Origin: Tubiluchus corallicola
Lineage: Eukaryota; Priapulida; Priapulimorpha; Priapulimorphida; Tubiluchidae
Direction: 5' to 3'
NCBI GenBank assembly: GCA_030141605.1
Contig: JAQGDQ010000145.1
Span: 186,001-250,000 of the forward strand
Length of the DNA stretch: 64,000 bases
Translations under genes and position numbers: made by a program
Shown here: positions 1 through 62,866 of the stretch, piece by piece
How positions within the stretch are numbered: the first letter of the stretch is position 1
Layout: every line of letters starts with the position of its first letter
Notes under the pieces: model-generated
Databases searched by the model: none
What the model saw: only the letters and a program-made list of their open reading frames with translations
Told to the model about the DNA's origin: nothing

Positions 1-3000
1 AAAGTGTGTCTAATCTGCATCCTGGTGAAGAAATTTGATTGTCCTCATTCTCGGTCACATTTTCGCTTTCTTCCTCATCATCAAGTGGGCTACCAAGCTT
101 GAACACTGGCTGTGCAAATGTGCTCATCTCCCGTTCATTTTCTTCGTTGATAACAGGTGGCGTATTAACACTGAGTGATGGTTTTGACTTCTTGTAATCA
201 TCCGGAACTAGTATGACCTAAATAATAAACATTTGCAAATGATAATTTTATTTTGAAAGTATACAGTCATTTACGGTAGTAATGTCAGCCATGTAAGTCA
301 GTGAAATGGGCTTCTGTGGCATTAAAAACTAGTTATATCTATCAAAATTTGCAGTACATTTATGATGCTATAATTACATAAAATATCACTATCTTTTGCA
401 GAATAAATGCCCACTTTCTTAGTATTAAGAGAAATTTTCTTGTAGTAGACAGAGTATCTATAAAATACACACTGTACATTGTGTCTATACACAGTTTCTG
501 TGTGATTATGCTAAGAATCTACACTTGTACACACAGTACCTTTGAAATATAAAATATGTTTTAAATTAAATAATTATATCTGATCATTTTTACCTGTGTA
601 GAATGAGAAGTGATCATAGCAGCAGAACGTATATAAGCATGTTCAGTATTTTTATTGTCAAGCTGCCTGCAGTATTTCAACAGGTAGATAGGAAGACAAT
701 AGTTGAGCAAAGAAATTCCTAGTAATCCAACATTTACCTGTAAATGCATTCAAAGTGCAGTTACATTCAGAAAGTGAATTAAGTATATCACTTTATTGGA
801 CATTTATTATTAATTGTTTGTCATTGAGATTTGTCTGCATTTAGTCATCTGTATTAAATTCTTAGTTGATGTGTCTCTTTCTTTTTGAATTTTCTAAATC
901 CAGGTAAAGTGAAAAGAATGATGCATATGAAGTGCTGGAATTAAAGTGTTGTGCAGATTACCTATATTGTTAAGTTAATATTATGAGATGTTTGTCACTT
1001 TAAGTTGCTTTGTTAGAAAGTAAACTAATTTACTTATTTTAATTTATTTTATATTATTTTAAACTAATAAGAATCAGGGATCTTCTTTAATAATATCTGG
1101 TAATACTAATAAGATCTTTGATAATGTGAATCTTACAGCTACTCTTCCATGCTGAAATTTCAGGTCCAATCAAATCAGTGTGTAAAGCATTGAGTTAGAA
1201 AATTAAACACTCGTCCGTTAATGTGAGAACAAATAACACAAACATCCCTGGCACCTTAAAAAACTCAAATAAACAAACTCTAATTTTCTGAATTAAAATA
1301 GAACAAAAGGTCAATTAACATCTGCTGTATAGCCATTTCATTCTTTAACCTGTATCTGGTATAATCTTGTTTAATAAGTGGCAGTTGGCTGTCATTAATG
1401 GGATAATGAGCATTCATTGATTTCACTTTAATAATCATATACTTGGTTATTGGTCTCACCAAGGTCTTCTCTATATCAGCTTGCAGTTTTATGTGTAAAT
1501 CCTCAACTCACCCAGTGTGGTTCCTGTCTTAAAGGACCTTCAATGAGCACAAACAATGGATATTGTAGTAGAGCAAATATTGCCGTAGCGAATGACTCCA
1601 AACCAACCAGGCTGCCGAAACTTTTGAAGTGATATGCAACAGCATACAGACCTCCCACAGCCGCGTGCACAAACCCTCGGACAATAGTGTGACAAACAAA
1701 CGTAAGAATCTGAAAAGTAAAAAATGTTTTTTTACAAATTTGATAGAGTTCGCTTGTGTGAAATTAAGGAGTTTGAAAATCCTGTGTTTTCAAAAGTAAC
1801 AAAATAAATATAACCCTAAACTTTACAATTCTCCACACGCGAGAAATTAGATCATGAAACAGATTAGGGTAAGAGTTAGGGTTGGGTTAGGGTTAGGATT
1901 AGGGTTAGAGATAGGATTAGAGTTAGTGGATTTAAATTCTGCGGGGAATTGTAAACTCCTTGCATATATTATAATTGAATTTCTAGATATTCAACTGTAG
2001 TAATCAAAAAGTAATGAACGTAACAGTTTATGTATAAACGACAATTAACTTAATTGCTATTTGGGTGAATGAAGAAGAGCTTGAAAAATTATGAATGAAC
2101 CAAGATTGAAGCTCAGGACCTTGCTGTGTCCTTGGGCTGCACGGTCATTTATTTTTAAGTTGTGAAAGAGAATATATAGATATGTTAAGCTGTGAACTCA
2201 CATAGTCAAGCAGGCCTAAGTTCTTGTACTAGTTTCACACAGCCAAACAGAGCCATCTATCCACAGTAATGTGAAATCTGCTAACTAATGTAATCAAATT
2301 AGCTGGCCTTTAACTCATTGGTAGAAATTCAGATTTTGAACTGTCATAAGCCAGAATTAATAAACCCAACAGTTTGTGTATAAGCAACAATTAACCTACC
2401 AGCTAATTAATTAAAGGAGAAAGACCTGAAAAATTGTGAACCAATCAGGATGAAGAATCAGAACCTTGTGATTAGGGATTACATGCTCTCTGCCTTTTCC
2501 ATATCAATCAATGAAATAACAATAGTAACAGTAGTATACAATTAGTCAAATTCATCTATCCACAGTATGGTGTAACTAACTAATCAATGTAATCCAATTA
2601 ATTGGACTGCAAATCTGACCTGTACTGGAAGGTTTGGCACCAGCACTAGCACACCAAACAACACTGTTAACGAATTTGTAATGAAAAATGCATTCATGGC
2701 GTTCTTTAGCTGGCGAATTTTCATGTCCACTTTTACTGAACGTGCTGACTCAGTAGAACGAGTTGAACTGAAGGAGCTTCTCTCTGTATCACCTTGAAAT
2801 AAAAACACTTTTAGCTACTCTGTTGCTCCTCATTGTAGTGTACACTGTCTTATTTTTTAACATATTACGCAGTCTCTTTTGGGTTTAATTCCAGGGGAGT
2901 GGATGTCGTAGGGTCATCCATTCTTTGAACCAGGGACTAGGGCTTCCAATTTTTTTAACTAAAGAAATAGAAACGTGTTTAAATTTTAATTTTTGAATTT

Positions 3001-6000
3001 GTTAGACCTCTGCACCATTTCTATTCTGGCCGCTGTTTATTTTCTGTGTTTCTGTGTAGTTGATTTCAGATATGCGGACACTTTGTTCGGCTTCGTACTC
3101 AGTTTACTAATGCTTTATAGAAAAAATTGATGTTTTAGATGAAATATTTTGTAAAACCTTCAGAAATGCTCCTAGTACACTATGCTCCTAGGCTGCTTTA
3201 TAGTCACTTTCTGATCACACACAACTGACAATCGTCTGACTCAGCAAACAGAAATTACATTATATAGGTACCTTCTTTTTCAGTGACACTGTCTAGAGGC
3301 TTTTCCTTTGTTCTCCAATCCATTACGATACCAATCAAAGGAGCGGCAAAGAAGCAACCAAGCTGCAGCATTCCAAATATGTATGTGTAGAGGTCAACTA
3401 AAAACATGTCATATTTATCACTGAAACCAGATGTAGTTCTACCACAATGATACCTGTAAATCTTGACATTATTGAACACATATTGAACTATTTACATACA
3501 AGCCAGAAATTTAGCAGTTTGATTACGTTGGTACATAATTAGTTTGGCATGCCATAGTAGTCTAAAGAATCAGTTTCGGAGTGCACTTATTAATTACCCA
3601 TCAGTTATGCTCGCAGCACGATTTACGGAATCACCTAAAAATAATCATGTATTTCATCACAGTAATAATTAGTACTTTATTATGTTGTATTTTTAGTAGT
3701 TTATTACAAAATACTTAAAACTCAGGTTACGAAATACTGTAGCATTAAGTTGCATGTGGCATTTATCAGTATTATGCTATCACTGTTGTTGCCAACGTTT
3801 TGGGATTTTTTTTTTGCTTATAGTAGCTGGTTGATCAACTTCAGCTATTCATATTTAAATAATATGTAATGAATAATAAATGTGATAATACCTGAGGTTT
3901 CTAGACCGCCTAGTAGTTATTTTAAGAGAATTATTTGAATTAGACTTCATTTTAAACTAAGGAAAATGACTTTAAATACAACTATTTGTTCATTAAATTT
4001 GACTTCTGCTATAAAACTGCAATTTGCTAGTTCCTATAGCCATTAAAATTCAATAAATTTTTCAATTTGTGATTGTTCATGTGCATATTTGTTATTATAC
4101 ATATCTATAAATACTTTAATCATAACTTGAATTACTCGATAAAATTATTTTATAACACAGAACTATTTAACAACGAAAATGTTGTTGTTATTATTTAGGC
4201 TAATTCAACAAATTTACTTGCAAGTGAGTACCTGATTGTTACTTGAGTTAGCATTTGTGATTTAACACCATGTCTTAAGTTCTGTGCTTTGAAACTGCCT
4301 ACCTTGGCTTCTGTTTCCTCCCGATATTTGCATGAGCATCTGCTCTAATGCACCAATGTAAAAGATGAGTCTTAATTGGGTGATGCACAGTGTGATCAAA
4401 CTCAGTATAAAGATTGGACTGCATATGGCTGCCTTCAACGATTGTTGTTTTCTTTGCTTTTCTTCTTTTTCTTCAAGTTCGTTAGTTTTGATAACAAGAT
4501 CAAAGCTGAAAGAACAGTAATATCATGTTCACATTAATTATTCATAGTCTTAATATCAAGATTAATTAATATTAATTGTGGTACTAAATCCACAATCTAT
4601 TGTATTGAAACCAAGTCTGAAAAACAGGAAATGTGAAAAGTTGAATCACAGCCTGCTATTGAACCAGGGACTTTCTGCTTCCAATGTTTGTACCGCTAGA
4701 ACCATATTTACCAGTGATCAAAGTAATCCATAGTTCATCACGTGTAGCTGGCCAGCCGGTTCAGCATTTTCAATGTTAGCAGACGTCTTGTAAGCAGTAG
4801 TTAGAATTACTCTACCATAATCTGCTTTATAATCAGAAAGCTCCTAGTTCGAATCCAGATAGTTTTACAACTTTTCACATTCAAGTTTTGTTTCAAAGTT
4901 TAATTGCCTAATTAATTGTCTCATTAATCGGATAATTATGGTTTGTCGAAAAAAACTGAATTAATGCACATGTAGGCCCTACTTCTTTACTGATTCAGTT
5001 CAATTCAATTCAAGTCACTACGTTTATTTGCCTCAATGATCATGTTACATTACAGCACATGCAATTTTAATACAATATACGCACAGAAACGTGGTGGCAA
5101 AAAACCAAAACCAGAGCAACTGAAATATAAACTGAACATACTGACATTTCACTTATTGAATTGCTGCTGACAGCTGTCTTATACCTCCAGAAGAACTTTT
5201 ATAATACAGAAGGAACGTACTTTGATGTGTATAGATCCTTATCTTTGTCCTGGTAGCGCAGTATGTCAGAAGACGACATGCGAGAGCCCACTTGTGACAC
5301 CATGGAATAGAACTTCTTGCCAGTCAACTTGTGGTCCAGACTGAATTGACGTGTGAAAGGACTGATTTTCTGTTCTGATGGTTCTGGTATGGCTTCCACT
5401 GTTTAAAAGTAAATGAGAACAGGCATGATTTTCATCAAGCAAAGTTTTGCCCAGCAAACCTTATTACGTACATTTACTGGTGTAATCTAGAGCTAAAATA
5501 ACTACAATAGGGAACTTTAGGATCTCGCAGAATACATTTTTATCTGCGAGCATTGCAGTTCTAAGAGAACTCATACGCTGATTTATTATCATCATTGTTG
5601 TTTTGTAAGGCACCCAGCTTTAGTCATCGACTCACAACATTGAATACCTCGAAAACATTGAATAACGCCTAGAATCCCCAAACTTGGTAAAGCTCAGACC
5701 ATGGTATGGTTAGAAAGCTGTGATTATTCAAGGACAATACGTAGGAACCAAAATGTGAAAATTAGGGGAAACTGCTCGGCGCTACAACACGTAATCAACA
5801 TGTGATCAAATCGCACTCAAATGATGAACAGGTCATACTCGGATAATGTGTCAGTACTCCAACAGGCATACTCAAATGATAAACTGTTTATGCACATGAA
5901 TTTACACCTGAATTCATCCAGTCTATCAAATGATAAACATGGTCATGCTCGCGGATTTGGATCCAAATTCATTCAGTCTTGTTCTTATAGATTCGAGATT

Positions 6001-9000
6001 GTTTATTTCACATCAACACAATTGCGATGCATACATAAAAAATACAAGAATTTCAATAATTCAATAGCTAAGAAGAAGTTGAAATACTCAGTAAGAGGCA
6101 AATTTGAAAAGATATTTAATTAGAGAGATACATATTATGATTAAATGATTTATGCTGCAGTGAAATAGGCATGGAAAAGCATTGGCACGTTTTCATGTGT
6201 ATACTTACATGGGACGTTCACATAGCAATTGATAATAACTAGTATACTGCCTCCAAACCACGTCAAGAAGAGGTACTGAGAGGGAACGCCCAAGTCATAC
6301 AACGCCTGGAAACAAGGAAACACCACAGCTGATGCAGCATAACTGCCCACCAGTATACTCAGCATCGTAGACCTCAGATGACCAAACATATTTGCTACCT
6401 GGAGTTTGAAACAGTTCATGTACTAAAGTTCCAAACTGAATTTGCTTTGTAAGTTAGTTAATGGTATGTATTAGCTGGCTTTTTAAAATGACTTGTTCTT
6501 CATCATGTAAAGTTGACGCTTAAGTGGCGTTTATGTAGAATCCGGATTTGAATGCGTTTTGGGGGGTGCATCCATTTATGCAACCTGCGTAATTTTCTTT
6601 TTCTGCAATAATTTCTATTGATTTTTTCCGCAGGCAATTTAACAAAGAAAACAGAATGCTTCACATTGCGGAGTAGATTAACTTTACAAAGCACGTCTTT
6701 TAGAACACGTCAAGTTAAACTTCATTTTGTGTGATGTGTGTCAGATTAAAGGCGTGGAGGTTAAATTCCTCTGAACTGGGAAAACATCCTACATTATCAA
6801 AGCATACATTTTCCAGTACTTGTATTATTACGTAAAGTGTCTGTCTAGTTTTCATTTTGCCAACGAATCTTCTTACTTCTGTGATAAATGAGAAAATGCC
6901 ACTTTTCCAACTTCATTTTGGGATGGAATTTGTTAATTTTTGGGTTAACTGTTAATTTTTGATCGTAATCTAAAATTCGTTTCATACAAAATTAATGTAA
7001 AGCATGAAAACTTTTAAAGAACAAAAGCGGTAAAGGACAATAAATATGAGTAGGCAGCAATTACTCTAGGAAGAGGAAGCGGATCATTAAATTGGAAGAC
7101 GGACTACCAGTAGACTGTTTACTTGTTTAGTCATTGGTAGGCTTTTAGGCCTATTTATAACTTGAATGACGCATTCTTACCTGAACGGAAGTAAATGTTA
7201 ACATAATTCCGCCCACGCCATTCAAGCTCACCATAACAAACAGGATAGCTGAGTATTCCTTCTTGGCAAATGTCATCATTAGACACGAAGCCCCAAATAA
7301 GAATCTAAAGGAAGAAAAAGCTATTATAACGTCTTTCTCAACTTCAGTATGCTTTAATTTGTTTTCATTTTTATTATGTCTATATGCTTTTACATACGTT
7401 TGTGTGTATGATAATGTAAAGAAGTCAAAGTCCCATTAAGTTGCAAAAAAAAAAATTTTCACAGAAGCTTTCAGTTCGCGGAAATCTACTTGTATAGCCT
7501 AGATCTTCACAGACCTTATATGACCTAGGCATTTCAAGATCTAGGCTACACAAGCAGATTTCACTGATGAAGTCCGTGAAGGACGAAAGCTTCTGTGAAA
7601 AATAAGAAATTGAGACTTTGTGCACTTTGTCTTTTTACGATTATTGACCACGGCAAGTCTCAAAAGAGCACCATCTTATTTTCAAGTGCAAGGTCATGTT
7701 TTTGTTTATGATTTTATTTCTGCTTGCACTTATAGTAATCTATTGGTTACGTAGATAATTTCAACAGCAGTTGTATGGTTTTTTAAGTTTTTCTCGCTCG
7801 ATGTCAAAACTTAAACACAGCAAAGTTTGTATTCTTGAAATTTCTAAATGTAGAACTTACGCTGCCACAAAGCGCAGCCTTCTTGAACCAAATTTGTCCA
7901 TAGCTAGACCAATGGGAAAGGTTAGTGCACTAAGCAAGAACGATCCTACCTGTAAACAAATACATAATCCATGTAAACCTTACAAGGTACAATATATTTT
8001 TTCTAATGGTGCGTTCAGAAGTAGAGACTTCTCTCGCAACTTGTTGCACAATTTCTCTCTGAGAGCAAAGTTGCACGTGTGAACGGCTTGACAACTTCTC
8101 TCACTACTTATTGTAAACTCAGCGAGAGTTGCTGAGAATTAACTTACGCAATAAGTCGCGAGAGAAGTTGCCATACCGTTCACACGTGCAACTTTGATCT
8201 GGGAGAGAAATTGTTCAACAAGTTGCGTGAGAAGTCTCTACGTCTGAACGCGCCATAAAATTTTTGACATTCTAATAACCATAACAAAGCTGCCCTGCTT
8301 TTTTCGTCCGAGAAAATTACTGCTTAGTTTGTTTTTATTTAGATGTTTGTATCGGGTTTCAGAAAACGAAATTATTATAAAAACTTGTGTCATTTTCATA
8401 TATTTAGGGCACTTACGTGATGCAATTTAAAATCAAAGTTCTTGTAGTGTAATTGCACAAACATTTAAAAGCGTTTTTATCTTTCAGGATAGGAGTCATT
8501 GACCTATACACAAGCCATGAATGCAAGCTAAGCTTATGAATTTCTTACTGTAAATACAAGATTCAGTCTCGTGTCCCGTACTGCACAACCCACGGTGTCA
8601 TCGGTCGTTACGTTACTAATATTTCCTCCATTGGTGTTATTGAGAAAAACTTCTTCACCTGTGAATGCGAATAAAGAACAGTTAACCAGTTTGGTTATTT
8701 TATTTATTTGTTTATTTGTTCATTTATCTATTTTATCTACTTAATTAATTGCTTATTTATTTATTGATCAATTTAGTTAATTTTTCAAGCATCTGTATTC
8801 CTTAGATGCACAACAACCAACAGGACAAGTTAAAATAGATGCCGGAGAGACATAAAGAATGCAATTACTACTTAAGTGTGTCTGCAAAAACACAAATGTG
8901 TTAAAAAATGAATTTTTATTAATTTTTAGCTAAATAATTTATTGAAGGCAGCATCATCCAGTGGAGACTCATTTGCATGTCCAGGAAGTGAATTCCACCA

Positions 9001-12303: not shown

Positions 12304-15300
12304 GATATCACAAAAATCTCAGTCTGAAATAAAATATTTGATAAAATGTGCGTAATTAAGCTGATTTTCTGCCTCTCATACGTTAGTTTTGTTATTTGAA
12401 TTAACTAATGATTTTACCATCTGTGCATATTTAGCTTACTATCAAATAGTTATTATTATTGTGACAAAATAGTTAAAACTAGACACAATTTAAATAGGTT
12501 CATTTAGAGTATTAAAAAATGAAAAATTATGTTTAAATAAGTGACAAAATGTACCTTTCGTCTTAACTTTAACTCTTAATTTTATATGACAAAAGACTAA
12601 AGCATTTGTGAACTTTTAGACTAATCAAAAATATAATTATTAATTACCTTGATATTTATGATAAAACTATCATTAAGTATTCATCATCATAAGCACTAGA
12701 GTACTACACAACCATTTCAAATTATTACTATTATTATTCTCTTTGTTCTTTGTTAATGAATAACGGGAAGTCTATTGGAGTTCAAACATTGACGAGTTCT
12801 TGGTTTTATTGAAGTTTTCTGGGTCAGGGTGGAGTTTAATCTGACGCTCTGCTGTCATTGGTGTAGTGAAATGACGTCAGGGTGTAGCGTAAATTTCATC
12901 CAATAAAAACCATGTTCTTGTGGAGGCGAACAGCTGTTTAGCTATCTAGTATGTGATTGCGACTACTGCTACCAGGTTCATGTTATAGATTAAGAAAACA
13001 TCGTTCATGTTTAATGCTGTTAAAGATTAAACCGAAGAGAAAAATACATTACCCAATGTTAAGTATTTTAGTACTTATTTGATTTTCTTATTTGACAAGA
13101 GAAAGTTAATGGTCTTTTCCAATGGTTATCAATTTTTCTTAATTGAATGCTGATAAGAGGGGCCATGCGCTAAACTATATAAATCAACAAATAAGTTACT
13201 GAGAGTAAAGTTTATCTGTTGCTCTTGTTTGTGCACAGGTACACATGTATTGCCACAACACAGAACTACAGATGCAGCTGCACAGGTGCTGCCATAACAC
13301 AGTACAACACAAGTACACATGTATTGCTGCTACTGCCGCAATACAGGACAGCACAGATGTATATGTGCAGCCATTACACAGGATAGCACAGGTGTATATG
13401 TGCAGCCATTACACAGGACAGCACAGGTGCATATGTGCAGCCATTACACAGGACAGCACAGGTGCATATGTGCAGCCATTACACAGGACAGCACAGGTGC
13501 ATATGTGCAGCCATTACACAGGACAGCACAGGTGCATATATACTGCTACAATGCAAGATAGCACAGATGCATAGCTACTGCCACAACACAGGACAGTGCA
13601 TGTGCCCATGTGCTGCCACAACAGAGGACAGTACAGGTTACTGCCACGACACCGGTGCACCTGTGCTGCCACAACACAGGCGAACTCCACCGCGGAAATT
13701 CCCTCCTCTCAGCATTTAAAAAATGTGACAACAGTATTAACACGTACTAAATGACCGTGTTATTACAATCATCGAAAAGCATAATGCTGGAATGCTTTCA
13801 TGTACAATTGTATAACATCAAAGGTTCCCCTCAGTCTTGTTGGACTCAGCTCAGTTTTGCATTTATAATGCCTATTTGCGATAAAAACCTCCGAAGTGTA
13901 AGGTATATTGTTTACTTAGATTAAAAAACAGTTTTAACTGAAGGTTTTGGTCAGAAATTTTTTATCAAAATTTCAGCTTTTGGCAAAAAATTATGTTTGA
14001 AACACGAACACGTTGTAAATCAATTTCTGTCTCAAATCTCAAATTTTATGTTCCAGAAAGCTGAACTTCACAGAAAATATAGCCGGAATATATATGATCT
14101 CTGATGTAGTAAGTTTACAATTACCCATTTTAAAGAAAATTGCAGCTAGTTTCAATTAATTAAAAAAGCAGAGGATTTCCACATACAAACGATTATTTTT
14201 GCAGTAACCGTTCTCATAACAAGAAAGAACAAAAAATTCCAAATCCCAACAAATAATTAGACAATAACGAGCTGTTATGCAAAATAAACTACAACTGTTT
14301 ATACACTAACAGTCTAGCAACACACAATAAGTTTCTACTTTCTACTGTTCACACACGTTTCTGTTGTAATAATTGCTCCTAAGACCTGATATACAGAGCC
14401 TTCGTGCTGAACAGCTGTTGGAGAATAAGTGTTCGTTTGAAACAAAAGTTATTGCAGATTCAGACCACAGGGTTAATAAAGCTGGGACAATACAAAATAG
14501 TTAACGTGTGATTGTCTCAGCTCAGCCAAAGCTTGAGGTTAAGTCAAATAACTCCAGTCGCCTAAATTAATATTTTTCTTTTATTAAAGCTCTTTTGCTA
14601 GTTAAAGTAACTGACTGCAATGAGGTCATACAATTTTGCAGCATTCATAGGCTTCCTACAGGCCTACACACAAACAACACAGATAAACAATGCTTGAAGA
14701 CTGTTGCTAAAAAAACAATATTACAAGTGAAACCTCTGACAAAACGTTAAAATATACCGGTCGGTAGGCAGGCAGACTGTAGGGTGTCCCACCACACGAT
14801 CACACTTTTGTAGATTACAATTCATACATAGTAGTTTTGCTCAAAGCCAGACTCAGACTTATGCAGAATTACAATGACAAAAACTATACCCGCTACCACC
14901 AATTATGCGCAAACATTCCACACAGGTCTTGCTTGTGCAGAAATAATGTTCCTGGTTTGTCCCAACAACAATGTAGGGCTAAAAGTCCCATGTACGCATT
15001 CTGCATGCTTTGTCATCCAAAAGGTGGCGAAGTGAGGTATTATCAGCAAATAGCAGTACCTCAGTTACTGTTTTACGTTAAATTACAAGTAACTGACTGA
15101 AAATAAAAGTTTATTTGTACCAGGCCACACACATATAAAAACAAAGTGTTTTATCAGAATTGAAACAAGACATTGGAAACGAAACACTGATATTTTGCTT
15201 AGCACTTCGTCTTGTGCAAAGATATCTTAAAAATTGCAACGTTTCGATGTTTGTTACAAATTACAGTACTATTCTTTGTAAATAAATAACCAAACAATCT

Positions 15301-17116: not shown

Positions 17117-20100
17117 TCATAGATAAATATCTGGACACTCTTTCCAGTCTTGCTTCTCCTTTGATTCCCAGTAATTTCCTTTGTACATGTGGATCAAGTT
17201 ACCAGTGTACTGATCACATTCCTTTTTAAACCAAACGGGTTCGTATGGTTGGAAAAGACGACCTAAAAGAAAAGACATTAGCAGCTTCCCTTAGCTACAA
17301 AATTTTTTACTTAATCTTCTGCATCACCGCAAAACATTTCACTAAAAACACAAATTATTCCCATTCTCAATAAACACCTATTATGATCCAGTTTTAGTGA
17401 AAATTAAATGCTTACAAAAAACAAAATCAACACAGTTGTGCTTAAAATGATGTATGTCCAAATTTCACAGATTATGAAATACTTTATTTATCTCTAATAT
17501 TCAGTGATTTAATTTAATATCAAACCAGAAAAATTCATCTAACAATTATTACTTTATTGTGTTGCAATTCAGTTACTGATTTGGTACATTAGTGAGTTAG
17601 TGGTTTAGCCAGTGATGGTTGCTAAATTACATAATGTTATGAAGCAGATAAAAGAAAACGAAGACTTCGCATACATACTTTCTGCTGCTGCTGCTTCGGC
17701 TTCGGCTTCTCTTTCCCTCCGCTTTGCCCTTTGCTTCTCCTCTAATCTTAACTTCACCTACAAATGGATTGCTTACTGGTTTAGTAAAACAGCATGGGTA
17801 AACAGCAGAGCCCAAAGACAACAGAAAACATTTAGCTACAAAGAGAAGCATTTACCAAGTATAAATCTAATATAGCTTTAACATTGGACAATTTAGCCTA
17901 TTTTACATAAATTGGATTACCGTACTGCCAGGGATGTTACTGAAATGAAAATTTTGTTTCTTCTTACCGATAACTGTATTTTCGCAGCCTAAACTTTCCA
18001 TAATTTTCGGTATCATTTTTCCGAGGCTTTAGTAGTATTTATCCACCTTACCTTTTTTATACTAGATGTTAAAAGTTGTTGAGTCCACAAAGTGTAAATA
18101 TCGCTTATTTAACTTTTGTAGCATTTGTAGCATGCTTTAAACTGCAATGCAGCATACGTTCAGTACTGACGACTGTCAAGCTTTAAGGTTTCCAGGCACA
18201 ACCAACCGAAATAAAAAAGTGTAATTTGAATAAAACCAAGTTTAATTTTATAATTTATGAAATATAGGCAACAAAATATGATTTGTGAATTTTATGAAGC
18301 ATCGTGATCTCTAACCATAAACATTGTTCTATTTTTTTGGTTAGGATTCTTTGCTTAGCTACTTTATCAAGCTTGTATCAGAGCAAATAAAAGCAAGCAA
18401 GCAAAACAAAGTATTTTATTCATTTCAGAATTTTTTTCAGTTTTGACAGTAACTGGTTTTGCAAAAATTATTTCAGTTCGGTTTCATTTCGGTATCGGTT
18501 TCCTATGTTTCATAAATTTCGGTTTTGGTTTACAATTTCAGCTTCGGTAACATTCCTGTGTACTACATGAAAGTCTGTACTACATGTACTACACAAATAC
18601 GCTCCAAGTTAATAAAGTCTTGATTTCATAAACAACGTAACATGAGATGCATACATCATTAGCATCGTCAAATTTGCCCTCCTCCATGAGCCGTTGATCT
18701 GGACGTAATCGCGAATCTGTCGGGCAAACTCCTTCTTCCGGTTCATTCAGCTGGCAAGCTAACTTCGTGAAGTGATATCGTCTTGCTGCTTCAGACCTAA
18801 AATAAATTATTAACTTTTCACAAATTATGTATTTGACCGGTGCACAAATTTAAGACCAATGCAACATGAACATTCACATTCCAGTCTTTCTTAACAATGA
18901 TGGCTACATTAGAAAATTGGAGTAACACTTAATACAACAGATAAATCAAGACCAATGGCCTCTCCGGTCACAAAATTGCTCACAGGTATAACAAAATTTT
19001 CCTTACATTTTTTACAATTTGATCAGAAACTCCATAATGTCATTTTAACTTACAGTTTTAACTGCTTGAAATAGGAGATCATCAACATTCCTGCTGAATG
19101 CGCGATTATGATGAAGTTGATATAAGTTTGTATCATTGAGAATTTTCTAGTCCAAACACAGAAAGTGAACATGACAGGGAAAAGGCAGGCTACCCTTCAA
19201 ACTTTAGTCAACACACCCAAGAAGCCTCACTATAATTTCTAAAGTAAAATGTCAAATACAACAATCCAGGATAAGCTATTGCATTAGCGATAGGAATTTT
19301 AATAAGAAATAAGATGAATTTGGTGGACAAAATAACACTCTGATTTTTTAAAATTATCTTTGATTCTTAGTTATTCGAGTTATTGACTGAAGCATATTAT
19401 TCACAAAAATACACAATCGAATGAAAATAATTGCCAACATGAGGTAATATAAACATTAAAAACAACATATAAATGAAGTTAAGAGGGATAAATCCAGTGA
19501 GCTGCTTCAGTGGGCATAGCAACTGAGCTATTTTAGTCATCACTTAAAATTATTAAATTATTTAAAACATAATTACGGAGGATAACGTCTCTTCCAAAGC
19601 AGAACAGATGGCCCCGTCTCCAAGAATGGTTGCCCATCTTTCGTAGATCCAATCGTATCCAACACCTTGGCACCTTCTATTCTATCATCCCAGTGTCCGG
19701 ATAATACCCAGTGGACTTTGCCTTCTGCATCTGTCACAACACCAGTGACCTAATAATAACCGATAACCAAAATATTAAAATAAATCTACAAAATGTTTAT
19801 ATTTGCAAATTCAGACATGACCAGTTCCATATTAGCATTAAGACACAGTTTGCCCTAACCAAATTTTTAGTTTTCATATTGAACCACTATGAAAGAATAA
19901 TAGTAATAGTAGTATTTTATTGACAATAATAATATTATAGTTCATCAATAACATTACAAAAACTGACACCCAGGAGTTAGAAAAAAAATGTCAAGAACAA
20001 ACACCAACACAACAAATTTTCAAACTTGCTGACAAGAATTTACCACACATTTTACTAATTGGCTCAGATATTCTACAATGTACAATAGCATGCGACTGGT

Positions 20101-23100
20101 CTTGAATAGAGACATTATCGCACCTGCTTACCCCATTATCAGGAAAAATGAGTGACCTGGCCCATCTACCAGTCTCAATCCTCAGATGATGAGAGGATAG
20201 CATAAACTTACTAAAACTGATTTGTAAAAGAATAAAGAATTGGGGAGATCAGACGACGAAATTGCATGTTGTACTAATGCAGGGTTCAGGGCTATATATC
20301 AAAATTGTTTACACTTTTAGCCCAAATATTATCTAAAATGTTGTCGGGAACGTAATCATAACACTTACGAAAGGACTTAACTGCATGAGAGTGACGACGT
20401 GAATTAGTAATTATCTGCCTGACAAACATTAGGGATTCATTATAAACTGAAGATTACCAAGCTTTTTATCCAAAAACTGTTTTATGTTTTTTTCAAAATT
20501 ACGTCTCTGACATTAGCCATGTTTGCTTCTATGAGATACAGACCAGCAAGACTATGCGACTGCTAACATACCTTTCTTGGGGGCTCGCGAGAGAAATAAC
20601 TATATGGATAGTACTTTAAATGGCAATTGTCCTTTGTTTTGTGATTAACGATATCCATTTCGCCTGACTGGTCAATCCAGAGTTTGCCTACGATGATATT
20701 ATGTACTGTAGTCATAACCTGTCAATAAAAACAAAGTAAAATATAGATAAAAACTGTTTAAACCACAAAAAAGTACACAATGTTGTGCTTTGCTCATTTT
20801 TGAGCAAACATTTGACAAACATTTACACCCCTTACAAGTTAATATGACTGAATCTCAGAGAGAATTATCACATTTTTTAATTTGAGGATCATTACGACTG
20901 TTGACATTCCATGACACAACTACGTAGTACACAAAATTTACAAAACAGTCGAAATGAGCAACCTATGTATAAGATAAAATACCCTCTAAGCATAATATTT
21001 ATGAGAAAAGTCAGGCTCAAAAAATCCAAACTCTGACATGATTCTTCAACTGCTCTAGTATTATTACTTTACTTAATAATTTTTTTGAAATACTAGCCCG
21101 ATATATTTCCACTGTTTCAACGATGAAATACATAAATCTAAATGTTGTAGGACATCCCATTTTCAAAATCTCCAAAAGTGCAGTGTTTGAGTCTGCGTTA
21201 TCAGATATCAGATTATCAGAAATGCAACATAAGGTTCTAGATACCTAACTAATTTTTAGTTATCAGTAAGTAACAGCATACTGTATTAAGTAAATACTCT
21301 TGAAAAAGTATGAAAGAGTATAGCAAAACAAGGGCAAAGAAGCGAATTAAAAGCTTTAGCCCATGTCAGTAACAGCTGCACTGTGAGTAAGCGCAGATAA
21401 CAGCTTGAACTGAACTTACCTTTTTCCACGAATAACAATTACCATCAGCAAAGTGCAAAAAGTTCAAGCCTTTTGGTTCAATGTTAATATGTTTACCACG
21501 AAAAAAACTGGTGACGCAGAACTCCTTCTGCAGTTTCCAACCCCTTCCCTCTGCGTAACTGGCTGCTACAGGAGGATGGTGACTAACCTACATACATAAA
21601 ACACACATGCACCATTCTTTACCTTCCGCCACGTGTAATGGTTGCCTGTCTTAGGGAATTCTAGATGCGCTATCCCTAAAGGGATAATATTCAGGTACTT
21701 TCCGCGAAATTTGCTTGACATGGTGAATTCTTGGTACATTTTCCAATGTCGGCCCTCAGTATATTGTGCAACTGCTGGCGGATGATGGCTGACCTAAAAT
21801 GGACAAAAACCTACAGTTGGTTGGAACACACTGGAGCTCCCACAAGTGAGCCACACTATTGGACACAATAACTCGAAAACATTGTGTGCTTCAAACACTG
21901 TATGCTGTAGTCTTATAAACATTAACCCTAGCAAGAATTAAGCAGACACAACAGAACTCATGCTATTTTGCCATGGATAAATAGGCAGTGTAAGAATTTG
22001 CCTTGGTGTAAAGTATATTCAGTTAGAAAGAGTGGTACAGACACATTTGACATTGTTGCAAACAAATTAAGTGCAGTTGCCATCTTATAAATATTATCTT
22101 TAATGTGCAATGTGATTCTGGAAAGATATCCTTCTATAAATTAGAAATTTTTTCTTTCAAGCCTTCTGGTCCATTCTAGATAACAATATTTTTGATCTCT
22201 TTTTTCAGTTTTTTGCAGGTTCCTCTGGTTTTAGTAAGAAAAAACAAATGCATTTCCAACTTATGTCTCTAGTCTTATTGTGAACTGTGAATGAATCAGC
22301 TCATCATTAATGCTGAGTCAGTGTTTCTAACAAATTGGTGCTATGAGGTAATACGTATCATATATATATATATACATATATATATATACACACACACGCA
22401 CACGCACACGCACACACACAATAGTGCAAATCACTAAAGCAAGATGAGGCTGGATACTGACAAATATGAGAAAAAGGGTACATGTGACAGACAGGTCACC
22501 TTAGTTTTCAAAAGCTGGGTTTGAACAAAATTCTGTAACACTCTCATGACACACACTTGCTCTAGTATCAAACAACTAGATGTGATGAAGTTCTCATAAA
22601 CATGGTGTTTATCATTTGGTAAAAACAGGCAGAACCATCACAATTTCTTTAACATGTTCACACATTAGATTCCTTCATCAAGCAGGAGTAATGTTTTACA
22701 CACGCAATCAAAACCGCAGAAAAACACTGAAATGAGTTGAACAAGTCTTTGGCTTATATTTACATTGTCATTAAGCACTGAAAGTGTAAAACCAGGCTTA
22801 CACGGGGTTCACGATTTCAGTGATTAAGTCCAACAGTCGCCAAACATTTGCCGAAAGTTCACCAAACATTTGCAAGTGTTCGTCGTTATCGCAAAAAGCC
22901 CGCCAGCTTCAGAAAATTTTTTAAAAATGTTTAAATGTCGCCAGAGTCGCAAAACTGTCTCAAAGATGTTATAACATTCGCCAAGCATTCGCAAACTTTT
23001 CGCTATGTTCGTCAACATTTTCAAAATTCACGAAAACTTGGCAAACATTTTGGGACTGTGTGCGACAGGTTTGCAACTATTTTTCGAACCATTTTGCAAC

Positions 23101-26100
23101 AGTTTGGCGAACCACGGTAAAAAATCCGTAAAATGATCACAAAATACTCGCACAAAACATTCACCATGTCCCAGAAGTCACCAAATATGTGAAACATGTT
23201 GTGCGAAGTTCGTGCATCATTTTCACGATTTTTGCTTGAGAAAAAAGCCCCAAATTTGCAAAAATGTGGCAAAAGTTGCGTGAATGATTTGCAACAAAAC
23301 ATAGTCACGGGAATCATTTGGCGACTGTTGGACTTCTCGCAAAAAAGTCGCTTCCTTGTGAAACTCTGGCTTAAGTGCTGAATTGAAAATTGCTACTGAA
23401 AAATTGAATTATGCTTCTATGTTTTACAAAAGGTAAAATAATACAAATTACCTTTTATAGCTAATAATGCAGAATGTGTATAACCATGTCAAAAAATATT
23501 TAATTCGATGTAGTATGTAGAGTTAGCATTACGTCAAATTAAGTTAGTCATCACTACCAGAAATGAATAGATTTGCCATGCAAGAAAACAGTAGAAGAAA
23601 AAATTCAAAATAATAGAAAAAACAAGCAATCATGTCTCAGGAGGATCATAAGCGTTTTCACAGTTCCAGCAATTGACGATGATCATGAAAAGGTCAAAGG
23701 TTAAGTGAACGAGACAATGCATTTGTGTACACTTGAGAACGCCTCGCAGCCCATGCTTTGTAATAGTAACAATTTTAACACCTAGCTAGAACATTACCTA
23801 GTTAATTTTTTTCTTGTTCCCATGCAAGATTCTGCTAGTAAATCACTCTACGCACAGACTAATGTATAATTAAGTAAAGTCCATGTAAAAAACAACTGAA
23901 GTTAATGAACAGACGCGGGAGACGCCTTGCCTTACATACATGTCACCTGGTGATTTATGGATTTTACATGAAGATGGGTTTTGGTAAAACCGCAGCCAAG
24001 CCCTATTGTTCAGTATTGTGCAAAAATATGTAATACCTACTTAACAATGATCACGGCTAGTCGACTTCATAATAGGCTTGGTCCATTGTGGGCAGGTGTT
24101 AACGAGGTTAGCCTCATGTTGCGTTTAGGCAACCAAAATATTCAATCGGATTTTGCTCCAATGTTATTTTACTTTAATTTAATTTAATACTGCTCTAATT
24201 CTACTTCAGTGTGATTTTAATTACTGTGGCTTTAATTTACATTCTATCTCAAGGTGATTTTAACTAAGCATTGTGGTTTTTAACTGCATTCTATTTTTTA
24301 ACTAGATCGTTTTGTAACTAGTGCGGTACAAATCATGCTACTCATACTGGAATTAAAAAATGATGAATGTTTCTGATGTGACATGGATCATGGTTTAATT
24401 TAACTTAAATTAATTTAAACTTAGTTAGTAACGTGAAAATATTCTGTGTTATTGTCTAATGTACGCTTGATTGTCATCCTTGATAAGTAATGCCACAGCT
24501 CAGCAGTGTTTTCAGCTGCCGCAAGAGCTACCTAGAGGTGAACGAATGTGGGTTTTGTTATCAGCTAATCGTTTAGTGGCCGGTTTTGCCATGTGCGGTT
24601 AAAGACGCATTGCTGGGGTTCACTTAACTTTTGACCTACAGCAACTGTGATTGTACATAGCAAAACTGCAAAAAGGCTTACTGCAAAAGAAAACTGCTGT
24701 TTATATAAATGCTAAAGTAATGAGAAATTGTAAAAAATCAGTAATAACTAAAAGTGCTTATGCTTAAACTACACTTTGTCAGCCCACCACATGACTGTTG
24801 TTCACCAGTTAGCATATCTATAAAAATTAACAGGAAAATTTTCTGGAGAAGATGTGAGGGCAAAGAACCGAACCTGGGAACCCCAGACAGGCAAACCATC
24901 ACAATGTAGATACTGATAATTACAAATTTAGGCCGTTTATATGTAAAAAAAATTATCTACAGTGGAACTAAAACTTTTATTAGTTACATGTTAGTTACTA
25001 TGTTACGTATGTATGTAGTATAATTACAAACATATTATAATGAGCACTGTTCAATGCCACATTTTATCAAGTCATTAAAACTGTAGTACTTCTTGTATCA
25101 TAACAAAATTAAAAACATACCACCTACCTACTAAAATTAATAACAGACTCACTATACAGAAAAAACACTAATATCATGTTAAGACAGTGTTAATGAACTA
25201 TGTGAAAACTGTCTACCTTTACTCTAAAAACTAAAGAAAAAAATGCAGTGCTAGTTATGACAAATAAATAAAAATGCTGCAAATGAATAAACAAAATAAA
25301 ATATTGCACACCACAGTCTCTAACAAAAAAGTAGACAGTGCATTCTGCTTTTTATTTCCAAATGTACATCAACATTCAAAAATCTAAAAAGATAATTTTG
25401 CTACATTTGCAAGTACACAATTATCTCAAAACAAATGTAGCATTAATTGTAGGTACAAAACACTAGTGTGTCATCATGAATACTTTATAGCAAAATAGCA
25501 TTTTGTCTTTCAGCCAAGAGAGTTGCAAGTACTGACCAATTTGTATATATTTCTGCTGAAATTTTACACTGCAGTTCTCAATGTACTTGACAATATTTTA
25601 AGTGAGTATGATTGTAAAAAAAACATACCTGTTCAGAAAGAGCACGCCATCCCAAGTCGTCTCTTCTGTCACACTCGAAGGTTTCCCCGAGTAAAGGATT
25701 AAAAGGTTTAGATGTGCGTGTGGTAGTGGTCGAATACGAAGAGACAGTGAATGCTGCCACGTATGCAAGCTGTTCTTTGGGATCAGTACATTTAGCTGCT
25801 TTATCCAAGATTGAGGAATACTCGAAATCCTCTGTCAATCGTTGCAGCATAGAAAGTGGCTCATTAAAATTCACCTGGAGATAAGGCAAAAATCCAAATA
25901 CATTTAATACCAATACCTTTAAAGATACAAACATCAAAATTCATAGGCCTTTAAATTAAAGTGAAAGTTTAAGATAGTTCAGGAAACCATCAAACGGAGC
26001 TTGATTTTTCTAAGACCAGACGCAAATGTTGCAAATGGTTAATCAATTGATTACTATGCATTAGTGAAGTAGTGGCAGGACAGATTCGCTGATTTAATCA

Positions 26101-29100
26101 ATTATAATCAACCCGGGGTTTTATTTTTGATCATCGATTGTATTACAGATAGCTCAATTGTATTACAGATACCATTTTCAATTTAGTGTTTGGAAAATCC
26201 ACAAAAATCACTCAACAAATATAACTGTCATTACGCTAGAATCAAGTAATGTGGCATTGTTTTGTCTCAATAACTTACTGTGCCTCAGTCGTTGCTTAGA
26301 TGCAAACGTTCCTCAGAAGCATGAAAACATGATTTTTGTGTGCACTTGCCTATTTGTAACTTGATTCAACTATGAAATCAGTTTGATTAGTCAATCCTCA
26401 AAATACAATCAAGTTGGTGTCCCAACACTAAACTGAAAAAACACAGAAGACAGTGACTTACAGGCATGGGGATTTTCGTCAGCTCCTTGCCAATGCAGTT
26501 CTTCATAATACTCCACAAACTGATGCTGTAATTAGGCTTATCAGGAATAATTGTCCTTCGCTTACGTTTCATGACTTTTTGCCCGGAACTAGGTACATCA
26601 CCTGCATGAAAATGGCAAAATAAAATTATCTAGGGTTAAAAAGAAAATCATTTGTTGTGGTTACCTGAACTGCTAAGTCGCTATTGAATCACTTAAATTT
26701 CAGTAATTGTTCATAACGTAAACTGGAGAAAAAGTCCGAGGTAAATTTTTACAAATAGTACTTTAAAACCTTCATTGTAAAACGTTTTCATGCTTTTATG
26801 ATGCAGCTTTACGTACAAAAGGAAAAAGTTTGTTAATAACTAATGACGACTTTGACGTTTGATACCGCAGCACTATTCGATAAACAATGCACAAATTCAA
26901 TATTCAATGAACAAACATTGAACAGATGTGCCATCTTTCATTAGAAATGCATTAATAAGTGTACTGTCACAGCTAACTGCTAGCTTCATCTAGTTTTATG
27001 GGTTTATAAAGTGAATGTCTACCAATAATGTGCACTTGAAAATTTTTGCTTCTGTCTTCTCACGAAATTTGCAAGCATTTCCACCAAACATTATTTTATA
27101 ACTCACAGTCGTCAGTGCAAGTGTCATATATTGTCTATGAACTTTTGCTTTGGTCTCTGCTGAGTTAAGCATAATTGAATTCAATCAAGAGAATTGCTAA
27201 ATTTAAACATGAAGGAATGTGTGCTTTATAGTTTACAATCTTGAATCAACCACAGATTTTTAGCAGTGGCATGCAGTATCAAAGCAGCTTTAGTTACATA
27301 TTTATTTTTACAAAATATATATATTTACCTATCTCTTCTTCTACTTTAACTTCATCCACAGCATCTGGGCATCCTTTCATGGAGACAATGATGGCACGCA
27401 CATTCTTCCTGCCCACTTCCAACTCTGAACCTGAATCATTCTCGTTCTCCACTTCAGATCCACTTGAGCGTGCATTTGATCGTCTACTAATATAAAATAC
27501 GCAGATAACAATATGGCTACTGTAATAGCTCAGTTCAGTTCAGTTCATTTTAGTTGATAATAGGTCAGTCCGCAAAGAGTTAAAAACAGAAATTTTCAGG
27601 TGTTAGGACTACTTTATCTTTAAAAAATTCTGCAACATTAAGCAAAAAAACGTCCCCACATAGTTAAAGGTTTAGGAGAATATATTTGAACACGTGTTCA
27701 AATGCCAATCAATCGGTAATTGATATGCAATCAAAAAAATTTTCTGATAATGGTCTGCAAACTAATTGCACCACATCTGTACAGTGAATCTACATTATAA
27801 ATTACAAAAGTAATGTACAATATTTGTAGGACAGTGCTTTTTAACAAAGCTTGTAAAGCATTTTAACAAATTTAATGTCTTACACAGACGTAATTCAGTT
27901 GTAACCGCTGTCAAATTGTTAAAAAAACATCAAATTTAATTGCACAAATGCATTGTCTCTAAAACAAAAACAGGAAATTCAAGCAATATTGCATGATTTC
28001 AAAATAAGTTGCAACCAATCTATTAAACTCATTCGAAATAAAAGATGGTAGTTACTTGTAACTAAGCTGGAGATCAGGAATTTCAACTTCGAATTCTTGT
28101 GTATCTTCAACAGCATCGTGAAACTCATCCTCTTCATCCTCTGAAGTAATCGCTCCTTAAATCACAGTAAAAAGGAGTTAAAAAATACAATAAAGAAAAA
28201 AGTGGCTTCTTTTAAGATTAGTTCACCTGATATGTAGTTAGAAATAGTTTCAAGTATATGTATTAGGAATAGCCTCTGCATTCTGCACTTTTATTATCAT
28301 AATTGCTTAAATAACAGTAAAAAAGAGTTAAAAATATAATAAAGCAAAAAGGTGGCTTTTTAAGATTAGTTCCCCTAATATGTTGTTAGAAATAATGTAC
28401 TAGGAATAGACTCTGCACTTTTATTACCATAATAAATATAACTTTTCCACATAAGTTGCAGTAATATTTTTTGCTAGCTGAAACAATAGGATTTGTTATT
28501 AAAACAAAATTGAATGAATTAACACGTCAAGTTTCTCACGGATTATGCATGGTTCAGTGTGGTTGACCGACTGAGCATTTTGCCCTAATTTTCACAGTAT
28601 GGCTCCTATTTCGGGCACTTAAAGAACCCAGCTGTTTTAACCATACTGTTACCTCAGCTTCTATCCCAGATGTCTACCCTGCATGTTTTGTGGCTTTAGG
28701 TACTCAAGTTTTTGGAGTTACGAGTCAACGCTTAGAATTTGATGCCTTACAAAAATGAAATGATGAATCCAGCATAAGAGTGATTCTAGAATCCTCTGCT
28801 CGCACATTAGCAACAAAGCTACAAGTTTTTACTATAACAGCATTGTCATGTGCAAGCACATCTATGATTTTTACGAAACTAACTGCTTTTCATCTGTCTG
28901 TCAGTTTTACCTAGGCCGTGAGGAGGTTTTGTTATTTCTTTAGCAGCAGCTGCCTCTTTTCGTGCAACTGCTTCTAGATGACTGTGCTGTTTGGCTAGTT
29001 GTTCCACCATTTCCTCTAATCTTAACCGCTGCTCATGTTCGTACTGAAGAGCTTTTTGCCATCTCTTACCACCAGACTGTGCTAGGTCCAAATAATCTGA

Positions 29101-32100
29101 ACATGCCTACAGACGAAAAAAAAACAAAAGGTATGTATTTAAGTTTAGGTTTAATTTTATTTTCTATAATGGGCTATCCATATCTAGATGCTCTAGCAAT
29201 ACGTACAATTCTAATATCACATACCACTAAGATAATAAATTTACATAAAATTATAAAATATATAAAGTGGGTTGAAAATACATCAAGAAAATAAAAACGT
29301 TAAAACTAGTGAGTTTTCAATTTAGATTAAGATATCAAAAAAAAAACTTGCATTATGAAGCTAAAAAATCTCTAAGCAGCATGCCAACATTTCGAACAAG
29401 TAAGTCTTTAAAAGCAGGCTGTCATTAAATCTTAACCTACAGATAGTATGACGTAAAGTCACAAGATCAGATGTACAGCTTTTTTTTACTACGCTTTGCC
29501 ATTTTGCAATCAAAAAGCAGTGTGGACTCAATGCTGCATTTATCAGAACATTAACTGCCAAGTTCAAGCAAAAGACTATTATTACAAAACCTAGGAAAAT
29601 TAATTAAACTAACAGATTGATTTTAATGGACTTCACTACAACACGAATATAAGAAATCCTGTCCCGTAACCATCTGATTCAGGTAGATAGGCCTGACAAG
29701 GAAAAATTGAGTCTCATTTGCCAAACCACTGACAAGTTTGCATATTCTTTCTTGTCTAGCAAGTGTAATTTGGTGCATACTTTAATATGTCATAATAGAA
29801 CATGTTAAACAACATTGTCTAGTCATACCAGAGCCTAGTAATTACTTAACCCAGTGCTGCTGTGACTTATTTTATTGATACACACATTTTGGGTTATGAG
29901 ATAAATAGCAATAAAAAATGGCAATAATTTCTTAAATCAGTGGACACAAGTATGTGACACTGACTTTTATCTTAAGCTGAATGGCTCCAAATTTCCATTT
30001 TTACATGAAATCTTTCCAGGAAGATCAAGCTGTTGTCCAATGAGTTCTACTCATATGCAAGAATGTGTTTAGATACTTAAAATCAGGAGTACCTACTGTC
30101 TACAGAAAAACATTGCAAGTAAAAAAGATATCAATAACAACTTTGGCATGCATAATAACAACCGTACGAGTGATTTAATGTCCTATAATTGGTTATATAA
30201 CAATATTTATATATTCTTAAATAATTGCACTCAAGCTTTGTCAAAAATAACATATTTACTATCAGTGCTACTACATGGTGTCCCAAAACAAGCAATGCAG
30301 GTGAAATGCACTGATCAATAAATCGAGTATGAAGTTATGTAGTAAAAGGTTATAATACAATAACCTGGCTTTTGTGCATTCCAATGTTAAGTATTACTGC
30401 ACACTCATCGGACATTGTATATTGTAAAAGTGGCATACTTATAACGTACCATGTGCACTGTTTCTTTTGGAACACCACTGTATTTGAAATAAAGCAAACA
30501 TCTATGCACTCACATTAATCATTGCATTAGCTGTTATTCGAAACAATGTAGCCCTCTCATGCACAGACTTGACTTTCTGAGGAAGATCAGGACTACCGTG
30601 TAAAGACATGTGCTCTAGTTCGCTCAGTGACCGCTGGAGGGCAGCACCGTGTTTTACTATCAAATCATTGCATGTACTGAGGTCTTCCAGTTTTGAGTTT
30701 AGTGATCGGAATGTGGACTGCAGCTCGTTTCGCTCAGGCTGACTTGGTGCTTCTTCTTCTTCGTCTTCTACAGTAAAAATGTCGGACAAAAAATTCTAAA
30801 CAGGAGGAATCAATTCAGTAAAACATACACTGATGCATACATGAAAAATGCCCATTGTTAAAAGTTCATAAAAATGTTCAAATGGTTCCACTTTAATATT
30901 AAGCTTTGGGCAGTTTAGACTAACTAAATGCACAAGTACAATCAATATTGTGCACTAATTCTTAAAGGAAAACTTAATCCACACACAATCTTAAACCACA
31001 GCTCAAAACAATCTACCCTACAAAATGTTGAAAGGAAACGCTATTTATTTCAAAAATTACTTACATGAAAGAATTATTACCACACAAATGCAATTTCGTG
31101 CTCGATTTACCAGTTCGCTGTTAGATGAGCACTAGCGCCTGCATCTCGGAAACACGTCACAACAAAAGATAGGTGCTGTGCCTCTCAGCTCGAAGGTGTT
31201 CGTTTGTGACATACTGCACATGTTTGAGAGCTCGTGCATGAGCACAGCGGTAAACTTGAAATTTGAATTTTAAACTTAAAAATTTGCCAAATTTTTGTAT
31301 AGCATACCAAATGTTGTACAGTAGCAATGGATTTCAATTTTTGCTTTTGCAAACACATGCAACACACTCATAGCATGTTTGCTCTGTTGAAAATTATGTT
31401 CATTTGTGATGTCATCACTAGTTGGGCTTAGTCGCCATTAATTAAGGTTTTAATCTATTATTTAATTATCAGAAATGCTTTGGTGTTAGAATGTATGCTT
31501 TCTACCATACACAAACTGGGATAAATGTGAAAAAACATCCTTTAATCTTTTGTAACACTACTATAATGTACAATAAACTGACACAGCAGCTAAGGTGAAA
31601 ATTTAAAATATAACACACCTTCTTCCATCTGACGTATGGCTTTTGCTTTGGCTAATTCAAGTACAGTGACCCATCGTTGTCGTTCCACCTCTGATGTTGC
31701 CCTCAAATGGAAAGTCTGAGTACCACCATTGGTCACTGTAAAGTTACATGTATCCTCTGTGTGTATGAAAGCCCCATGGAGGGAAATTGTACCACGGCAC
31801 GTGTGTGCCATCTCTGCCTGGGTCCTGGATAAAAAAAACTGTCAGATAAATTGCCACCAATTATGACAGATATGTCATGGCAGCACACTGAACCACATTA
31901 CTAAATTCCAAATAATTAGTGCACATAAAATATTATATAGTTAAAGTATAGCACAAAACATTCTGATTATGAATAGCTTAAAAGTAAATGTTAATAATAA
32001 TAATAATAATAAGAAGAAGAATATTATAATAATAATAATTTCATTTAAAGTTACCTTCTGGATGAACAAATAAATTAAGCTTTTTTCCGACTGTAAATAA

Positions 32101-39908: not shown

Positions 39909-61054
<21,146 letters not shown>

Positions 61055-62346: not shown

Positions 62347-62461
62347 GTCCATCTCAAGACACACAGATTTGCAAAATTGTTCATTGACAATTTTTGCTAA
62401 AACAATCACACCTTACCAAGCAAGAGCTTTCAGACTTAAACTTAACTAGAATTCAAAAAAG

Positions 62462-62866
62462 ATGGAAAAATTTCTGGGAAAATGGACACAGGTAAAGCAC
62501 GAAAAGCTGGATGAATACTTGACCACTCAAGGAATTCCATGGCCAGTTCGTAAAGCAGCCATTGCTGCTGGTCTAACCACAGAAATCACGGAAAAGGATG
62601 GAGTATTCCAGCTTCACCAGTGGAATCTTATTAAGACAGTAATGAATCTGTCATTCAAGATAGATGAAGAGCTTGACTGGACACGACCTGATGGGAAAAA
62701 GTGCAAGACCAAGTTTTACTTGGATGGGGAGAAACTGATACAGGAAATGATGTTCGAAGATGAAAAAGTTGAAAATATTGTTAGAGAGCTTGTTGGGGAA
62801 CAGTTGGTTCAAACAGTAACAAGTGGTGACATAGTTTGTAAGAGATTTTTTAACAAAGCAAAATAG
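62462..62866 (+). CDS. Fatty-acid-binding protein (intracellular lipid-binding protein family)
   Basis: 134 aa, the usual length for this ten-stranded beta-barrel family of cytosolic carriers of fatty acids or retinoids. It starts MEKFLGKWTQVKHEKLDEYL, matching the family's first-strand signature, with the helix-turn-helix lid after it. It ends with VGEQLVQTVTSGDIVCKRFF; the terminal R-x-F stands where many members have R-x-Y contacting the ligand carboxylate. The start context aaaaaagATGg is favourable, and upstream stops in all frames support this start. The coding sequence has no introns, whereas most animal members have three. A 5' UTR intron is likely (see separate entry). The gene is divergent from MARS1, with 1.4 kb between start codons. 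Confidence 0.95.
   Translation: MEKFLGKWTQVKHEKLDEYLTTQGIPWPVRKAAIAAGLTTEITEKDGVFQLHQWNLIKTVMNLSFKIDEELDWTRPDGKKCKTKFYLDGEKLIQEMMFEDEKVENIVRELVGEQLVQTVTSGDIVCKRFFNKAK

Follow-up and report, generated by a model that had tools for sequence, protein, structure and literature searches.

OSBP shuttles cholesterol and the signalling lipid PI4P between membranes and drives their exchange at contact sites, and the predicted OSBP gene of Tubiluchus corallicola raises the question of why the part of its lipid-binding domain (ORD) that begins with the VSHHPP signature should be encoded by two adjacent exons, and whether both, one of them only, or either one in turn would enter the mRNA. The window, i.e., the whole stretch of 64,000 nucleotides that was analysed, holds this gene on the minus strand from about 31.8 kb to about 17.1 kb, running from part of a PH domain through a middle region and the ORD to a C-terminal piece carrying the stop codon. 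The ORD spliced in its A form (329 residues) matched human OSBP (PDB 7v62) over query residues 5-328 with 472 bits and an E value of 8.3e-141, versus 252 bits for its next-best solved relative, ORP3; in this comparison among ORPs with solved structures OSBP is best by a wide margin and, judged on its sequence, the gene is OSBP and not another ORP. The SHHPP signature is present in the ORD, which is recognised as Pfam PF01237, and the PH profile scored 24.0 bits against a cut-off of 25.1 in the one frame scanned, which holds part of the domain. No relatives of the A form (188 residues) were confirmed in viral_contigs or genome_contigs, as expected for an animal gene, and Rfam gave no match at gathering score anywhere in the window. 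In the order of transcription, the features are:

27329-31824, minus strand: upstream OSBP exons for part of the PH domain and the middle region; several boundaries are approximate and the mapping starts after the first exons
26462-26601, minus strand: OSBP exon, start of the ORD
25629-25874, minus strand: upstream ORD exon (VNFNEPLS...ALSEQ), phase 0-0
21794-25628, minus strand: upstream intron, 3835 nt, the longest of the 12 listed
21623-21793, minus strand: exon A, 171 nt, 57 codons, open, phase 0-0, ending in TWRK, the more canonical copy
21588-21622, minus strand: gap from the donor of A to the acceptor of B, 35 nt, GTAAAGAATGGTGCATGTGTGTTTTATGTATGTAG, holding TGCATG and TGTGTGTTTT
21606-21611, minus strand: TGCATG (UGCAUG), candidate RBFOX-family site, the sole minus-strand copy between 20400 and 22300
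21420-21587, minus strand: exon B, 168 nt, 56 codons, open, phase 0-0, ending in SWKK, the more derived copy
20719-21419, minus strand: downstream intron, 701 nt
20572-20718, minus strand: downstream ORD exon, ending in EPPRK, phase 0-0
18655-19749, minus strand: two further ORD exons (19749 to about 19577, and 18796-18655) and the intron between them
17120-17757, minus strand: last exons, with the KLRLEEKQR helix (17757 to about 17685) and the C-terminal piece (...CPDIYL and stop, within 17290-17120)

Between the ORD exons 25874-25629 and 20718-20572 there are thus two exons where one is expected. A sequence-only reading of this DNA had described them as adjacent, homologous, open minus-strand exons of 171 and 168 nt, both in phase 0-0 and with good splice sites, and its coordinates proved right to the base; their translations likewise agree with its statement that both encode VSHHPP and FRGK. 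Exon A is bordered by TTTTAG/GTC...AAG/GTAAAG and exon B by ATGTAG/GTT...AAG/GTAAGT, canonical GT-AG junctions in both cases, and the VSHHPP start, FRGK and a tryptophan near the end are common to the two. As a chance level for the open frame, 20000 random frames of 168 nt were drawn from the minus strand of the window, and about 3.8% of them were open. The pair consists of neighbouring, similar internal exons in the same frame, of similar length, with no in-frame stop and with GT-AG borders, which are among the features by which clusters of mutually exclusive exons are recognised in PMC5740500.

Divergence and constraint of the two exons

Compared with each other, A and B were identical at 31 of 57 aligned positions (67.4 bits, E 1e-22, single comparison), and each exon alone matched positions 103-159 of the Pfam Oxysterol_BP profile, with 67.5 bits for A and 50.3 bits for B, both above the cut-off of 28.9 bits. 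The ORD in which B was swapped for A still aligned to human OSBP over its length (454.5 bits, E 2e-135); relative to the A form, this B form scored slightly higher for ORP1, Osh6 and Kes1, and lower for OSBP, ORP2, ORP3, ORP8, Osh3 and the KLLA0C04147p chain. In A, 33 of 57 aligned residues were the same as in human OSBP, and in B 29 of 56. A special resemblance of B to ORP1, prompted by a common EPKG and by a rise from 250.7 to 254.3 bits for 5zm6 when A was replaced by B, was dropped, as the change is small, Osh6 and Kes1 rise too, and B shares fewer residues with ORP1 (23 of 52) than with OSBP. When A, B and the human OSBP segment were searched against the whole window with tblastn, they found these two places (weakest E 1.06e-14), with no third copy and nothing else at E < 0.8.

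Adjacent copies of this sort might be an artefact of the assembly or a very recent duplication, but A and B have a nucleotide identity of 55% over 56 aligned codons and their synonymous sites are saturated (pS 1.0, dN 0.40, Nei-Gojobori count). An assembly duplication, which the sequence-only reading had itself named as an outcome that would overturn it, is refuted by this divergence, and the probability that we would assign to artefact or very recent origin is negligible. The divergence between A and B (31 of 56 identical) is about equal to that of each copy from human OSBP, which fits a duplication of great age, although unequal rates could mimic it. Exon A is 58% identical to human OSBP, versus 76% and 80% for the neighbouring exons, but the corresponding segment is variable between human ORPs as well (46% between OSBP and ORP3, with 56% and 38% for its neighbours), so that A and B may, but need not, have evolved faster than the exons that flank them.

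It could also be that one of the two exons, more likely B, is no longer used. B is the less typical copy, both in its profile score and in its identity to human OSBP, and its pyrimidine tract is poorer than that of A; it has nonetheless remained open, has kept VSHHPP, FRGK and the tryptophan near its end, possesses a full-consensus donor, and differs from A mostly at third codon positions (identity 55, 77 and 32% at the first, second and third position, respectively, over 56 codons). When A was made to decay neutrally to the same nucleotide identity, the frame stayed open in 3.3% of 5000 runs and the identical residues averaged 13.9 with a maximum of 24, versus the 31 seen, none of the 5000 runs keeping what B keeps. 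The simulation treats B as decaying throughout, and a recent loss of B use would be compatible with it. Overall, in this one sequence of one species both copies look old and constrained; we consider disuse of one of them unlikely and, likewise, B unlikely to be a dead copy.

The 35-nt gap and the choice between A and B

The sequence-only reading had placed an intron of 35 nt at 21588-21622 and had argued that it is too short for A and B to be joined, so that only one of them could be used. The length is as it was given, and the remaining 11 mapped introns, which lie between 31.8 kb and 17.7 kb and have several exon ends approximate by some bases, measure 567-3835 nt. The smallest productive donor-to-branch-point distance in human test genes was 46 nt (PMC11291888), 57 of 629 human clusters of mutually exclusive exons (9%) were reported below a 50-bp donor-to-branch-point limit (PMC5740500), and exclusivity is enforced by branch points 25-41 nt from the donor in OGDH and 41 nt in intron 2 of rat Tpm1 (PMC7969005). 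These published limits, with which the gap was compared, are vertebrate. In the OSBP pair the distance from A's donor to B's branch point would fall under the approximately 50 nt of the steric type: with only 35 nt available in the gap, B would have to use a branch point that overlaps or nearly touches A's donor, or one in exon A. Among the five branch-point-like sites listed for B, one is the GTAAA in A's donor (32 nt) and the rest are in exon A (47-55 nt). All are weak candidates, with best scores of 2.42, 1.63 and 1.0 and each with at least one AG before the acceptor; on the same matrix the best scores at seven other acceptors scanned ranged from 2.49 to 5.82, some also with intervening AGs. 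U1 bound to A's donor and U2 bound to the branch point of B would then be sterically incompatible, the joining of A to B would be blocked, and one exon per mRNA would result.

If the 35-nt intron were nonetheless spliced, A and B would be included in series and the ORD would gain a second SHHPP unit of 56 residues. The two exons joined are in frame without a stop, and A's donor and B's acceptor are both canonical, but the gap is below the published donor-to-branch-point limits, the 11 other mapped introns are all of at least 567 nt, A or B by itself is enough to cover profile positions 103-159, and one such segment is present in the solved ORDs that were aligned; we therefore regard serial inclusion as quite improbable. 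A cassette switch, in which both exons are skipped in some transcripts to give an ORD without the His-His loop that might act as a tether or as a dominant negative, would also keep the frame, as the two flanking exons then read through for 393 nt with no stop. That skipping removes the two PI4P-binding histidines, as had been predicted from the sequence, is borne out, and the strands that follow them would be lost as well; nothing in the sequence favours this product, and we think it very unlikely. Retention of the gap in the mRNA, by contrast with the joined and skipped forms, would shift the frame and lead to a stop. Since A and B join in frame, nonsense-mediated decay is not expected to remove transcripts carrying both, and since the joined and the skipped forms are both in frame, exclusion must come from splicing itself and not from the decay of bad transcripts.

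We prefer to read A and B as exons that arose by tandem duplication in an animal OSBP gene and exclude each other through steric clash, and on the anatomy of the locus we hold this to be probable. That the gene is an animal one agrees with its likeness to human OSBP and with its intron structure. The earlier argument from the length of the gap stands insofar as the gap lies below the published vertebrate limits and the anatomy fits, while exclusivity itself, together with the use of both exons and a difference in lipid between the two forms, is what we infer from them. Exclusive exons whose separating gap is too short to be spliced have been described before, and the OSBP pair has those of their features that can be tested in a sequence. 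It resembles the exclusive exons of alpha-tropomyosin (Tpm1) and exons 4a/4b of OGDH, where the branch point of the second exon is too near the donor of the first (PMC7969005), and differs from them in the gene and protein fold concerned, in a gap of 35 nt that puts even the acceptor inside the limit, and in that a long polypyrimidine tract with a branch point far upstream was not seen.

How one exon might be preferred over the other was considered from the splice sites and from motifs in the gap. The 20 nt before the acceptor contain 14 pyrimidines in A and 11 in B, compared with 9 to 15 in the other seven acceptors, so that B's acceptor, with others at 9 and 10 of 20, ranks above the poorest of the nine. 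The donor of A agrees with the consensus at 7 of 9 positions and that of B at all 9, the latter having the best U1 pairing among the eight donors compared. A better acceptor with a weaker donor in A, and a consensus donor with a weaker acceptor in B, would suit a balanced choice between the two. No RNA structure beyond that of shuffled sequences was found at 21540-21680 (z 0.57).

RBFOX proteins recognise UGCAUG (PMC3585155). When the minus strand was cut into 63966 overlapping stretches of 35 nt, the motif, as TGCATG, was present in 510 (0.8%), and together with TGTGT in 73 (0.11%); it is not enriched in the window (39 found versus 51 expected), and both gap motifs were picked after seeing the sequence. 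For these two reasons control of the pair by RBFOX and/or CELF proteins, which the UGCAUG and the GU-rich run suggest by analogy with other genes, is put forward as a hypothesis. In C. elegans unc-32, with exons 7a/7b, intron 7a between the two contains a UUGUUGUGUUGU stretch through which the CELF protein UNC-75, bound there, represses 7b (PMC3585155), and the GU-rich TGTGTGTTTT in the OSBP gap is similar to this element, the likeness here being one of motif only. By analogy with UNC-75, a factor bound in the gap would hide the acceptor of B, and A would be taken. RBFOX proteins bind UGCAUG in both unc-32 and egl-15; in unc-32, however, the motif lies in intron 7b and promotes splicing of 7a to exon 8, while in egl-15, with exons 5A/5B, RBFOX and SUP-12 repress the upstream exon (PMC3585155). 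The place of UGCAUG in the OSBP gap, where the motifs alone were seen, matches neither case exactly, and because position effects vary between egl-15 and unc-32 the direction of an RBFOX effect here would be a guess. A rule by which RBFOX represses the second exon as in egl-15 was considered and dropped, as it is the upstream exon that is repressed in that gene (PMC3585155).

What an exchange of A for B would change

The known splice forms of human OSBP and ORP1 change domain content. Both proteins (PDB 7v62 and 5zm5-5zm7) have the same ORD as the present gene, with the His-His loop at which exons A and B start. In ORP1, His651 and His652 in the beta2-beta3 loop hold the 4-phosphate of the phosphoinositide, and the beta4-beta5 hairpin near the tunnel mouth forms a basic patch without which membrane association and sterol transfer fail (PMC6381110). 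From the His-His loop each exon extends for about 50 residues and should therefore take in the hairpin. Of the 56 aligned residues, 25 are not shared by A and B; the changes include K to F ahead of FRGK, and IIPLG to IEPKG. A swap would exchange the PI4P-gripping loop and the strands after it, keeping the histidines and altering the neighbouring wall and surface. Since VSHHPP, FRGK and the tryptophan are kept in both exons, both forms should bind PI4P, and the likeliest effect of the swap would be a tuned membrane docking or ligand preference, and not a loss of PI4P binding. That one gene would make two lipid exchangers is a plausible proposal.

ORP splicing under RBFOX control has a precedent in exon 6 of OSBPL9, controlled by RBFOX2 in mouse liver and human hepatocytes (PMC9771820), and OSBPL8 is named among alternatively spliced genes (PMC13264825). 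The OSBPL9 case differs from the present one in that it concerns another gene and a single exon scored by percentage spliced in, and no pair of ORD exons is described in the passages concerned (PMC9771820). The sequence-only reading knew of no description of exon switching at this place in OSBP; nor did we find any among the matches listed from the open-licence literature, where the passages retrieved, supplementary catalogue tables of mutually exclusive exons apart, reported no mutually exclusive ORD exon pair in OSBP or any ORP.

A wider and more tentative proposal, which we think possible but doubtful, is that the pair constitutes an ancient OSBP switch of an invertebrate lineage, run by RBFOX/CELF proteins, that swaps loop and hairpin and thereby yields two exchangers with tissue-specific membrane or lipid preference. 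If this were true, splicing would do here what vertebrates do through gene duplication into several ORPs. Apart from this wider proposal, an exclusive pair would supply two isoforms, equal but for 56-57 residues near the tunnel mouth, as a natural domain-swap experiment long kept by selection. It would also be a very compact case of steric exon exclusion, with a whole gap of 35 nt.

Other features of the window

Outside the OSBP gene, pieces that read like a multi-span membrane transporter are present on the minus strand at 1283-7435, three scanned pieces having no Pfam match. A tandem repeat on the plus strand at 13209-13716 (e.g., HRTAQVHMCSHYTGQ) is partly open in all three plus frames and is probably a minisatellite, not a gene, and a long (GA)n/(CT)n simple repeat at 46290-46560 is open in several frames on both strands. 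On the minus strand, about 50286-51614 carries exons of a methionyl-tRNA synthetase (tRNA-synt_1g, 80.9 and 81.5 bits in two frames), and the plus-strand frame at 55915-56739 has a BTB_2 domain (62.9 bits), which we take to be of the KCTD or potassium-channel type. Finally, a single open frame of 138 codons on the plus strand at 62450-62863 is fatty-acid-binding-protein-like (Lipocalin_7, 24.1 bits against a cut-off of 25.4); genes for fatty-acid-binding proteins usually have introns, and this uninterrupted frame may therefore be a retrocopy or have lost its introns.
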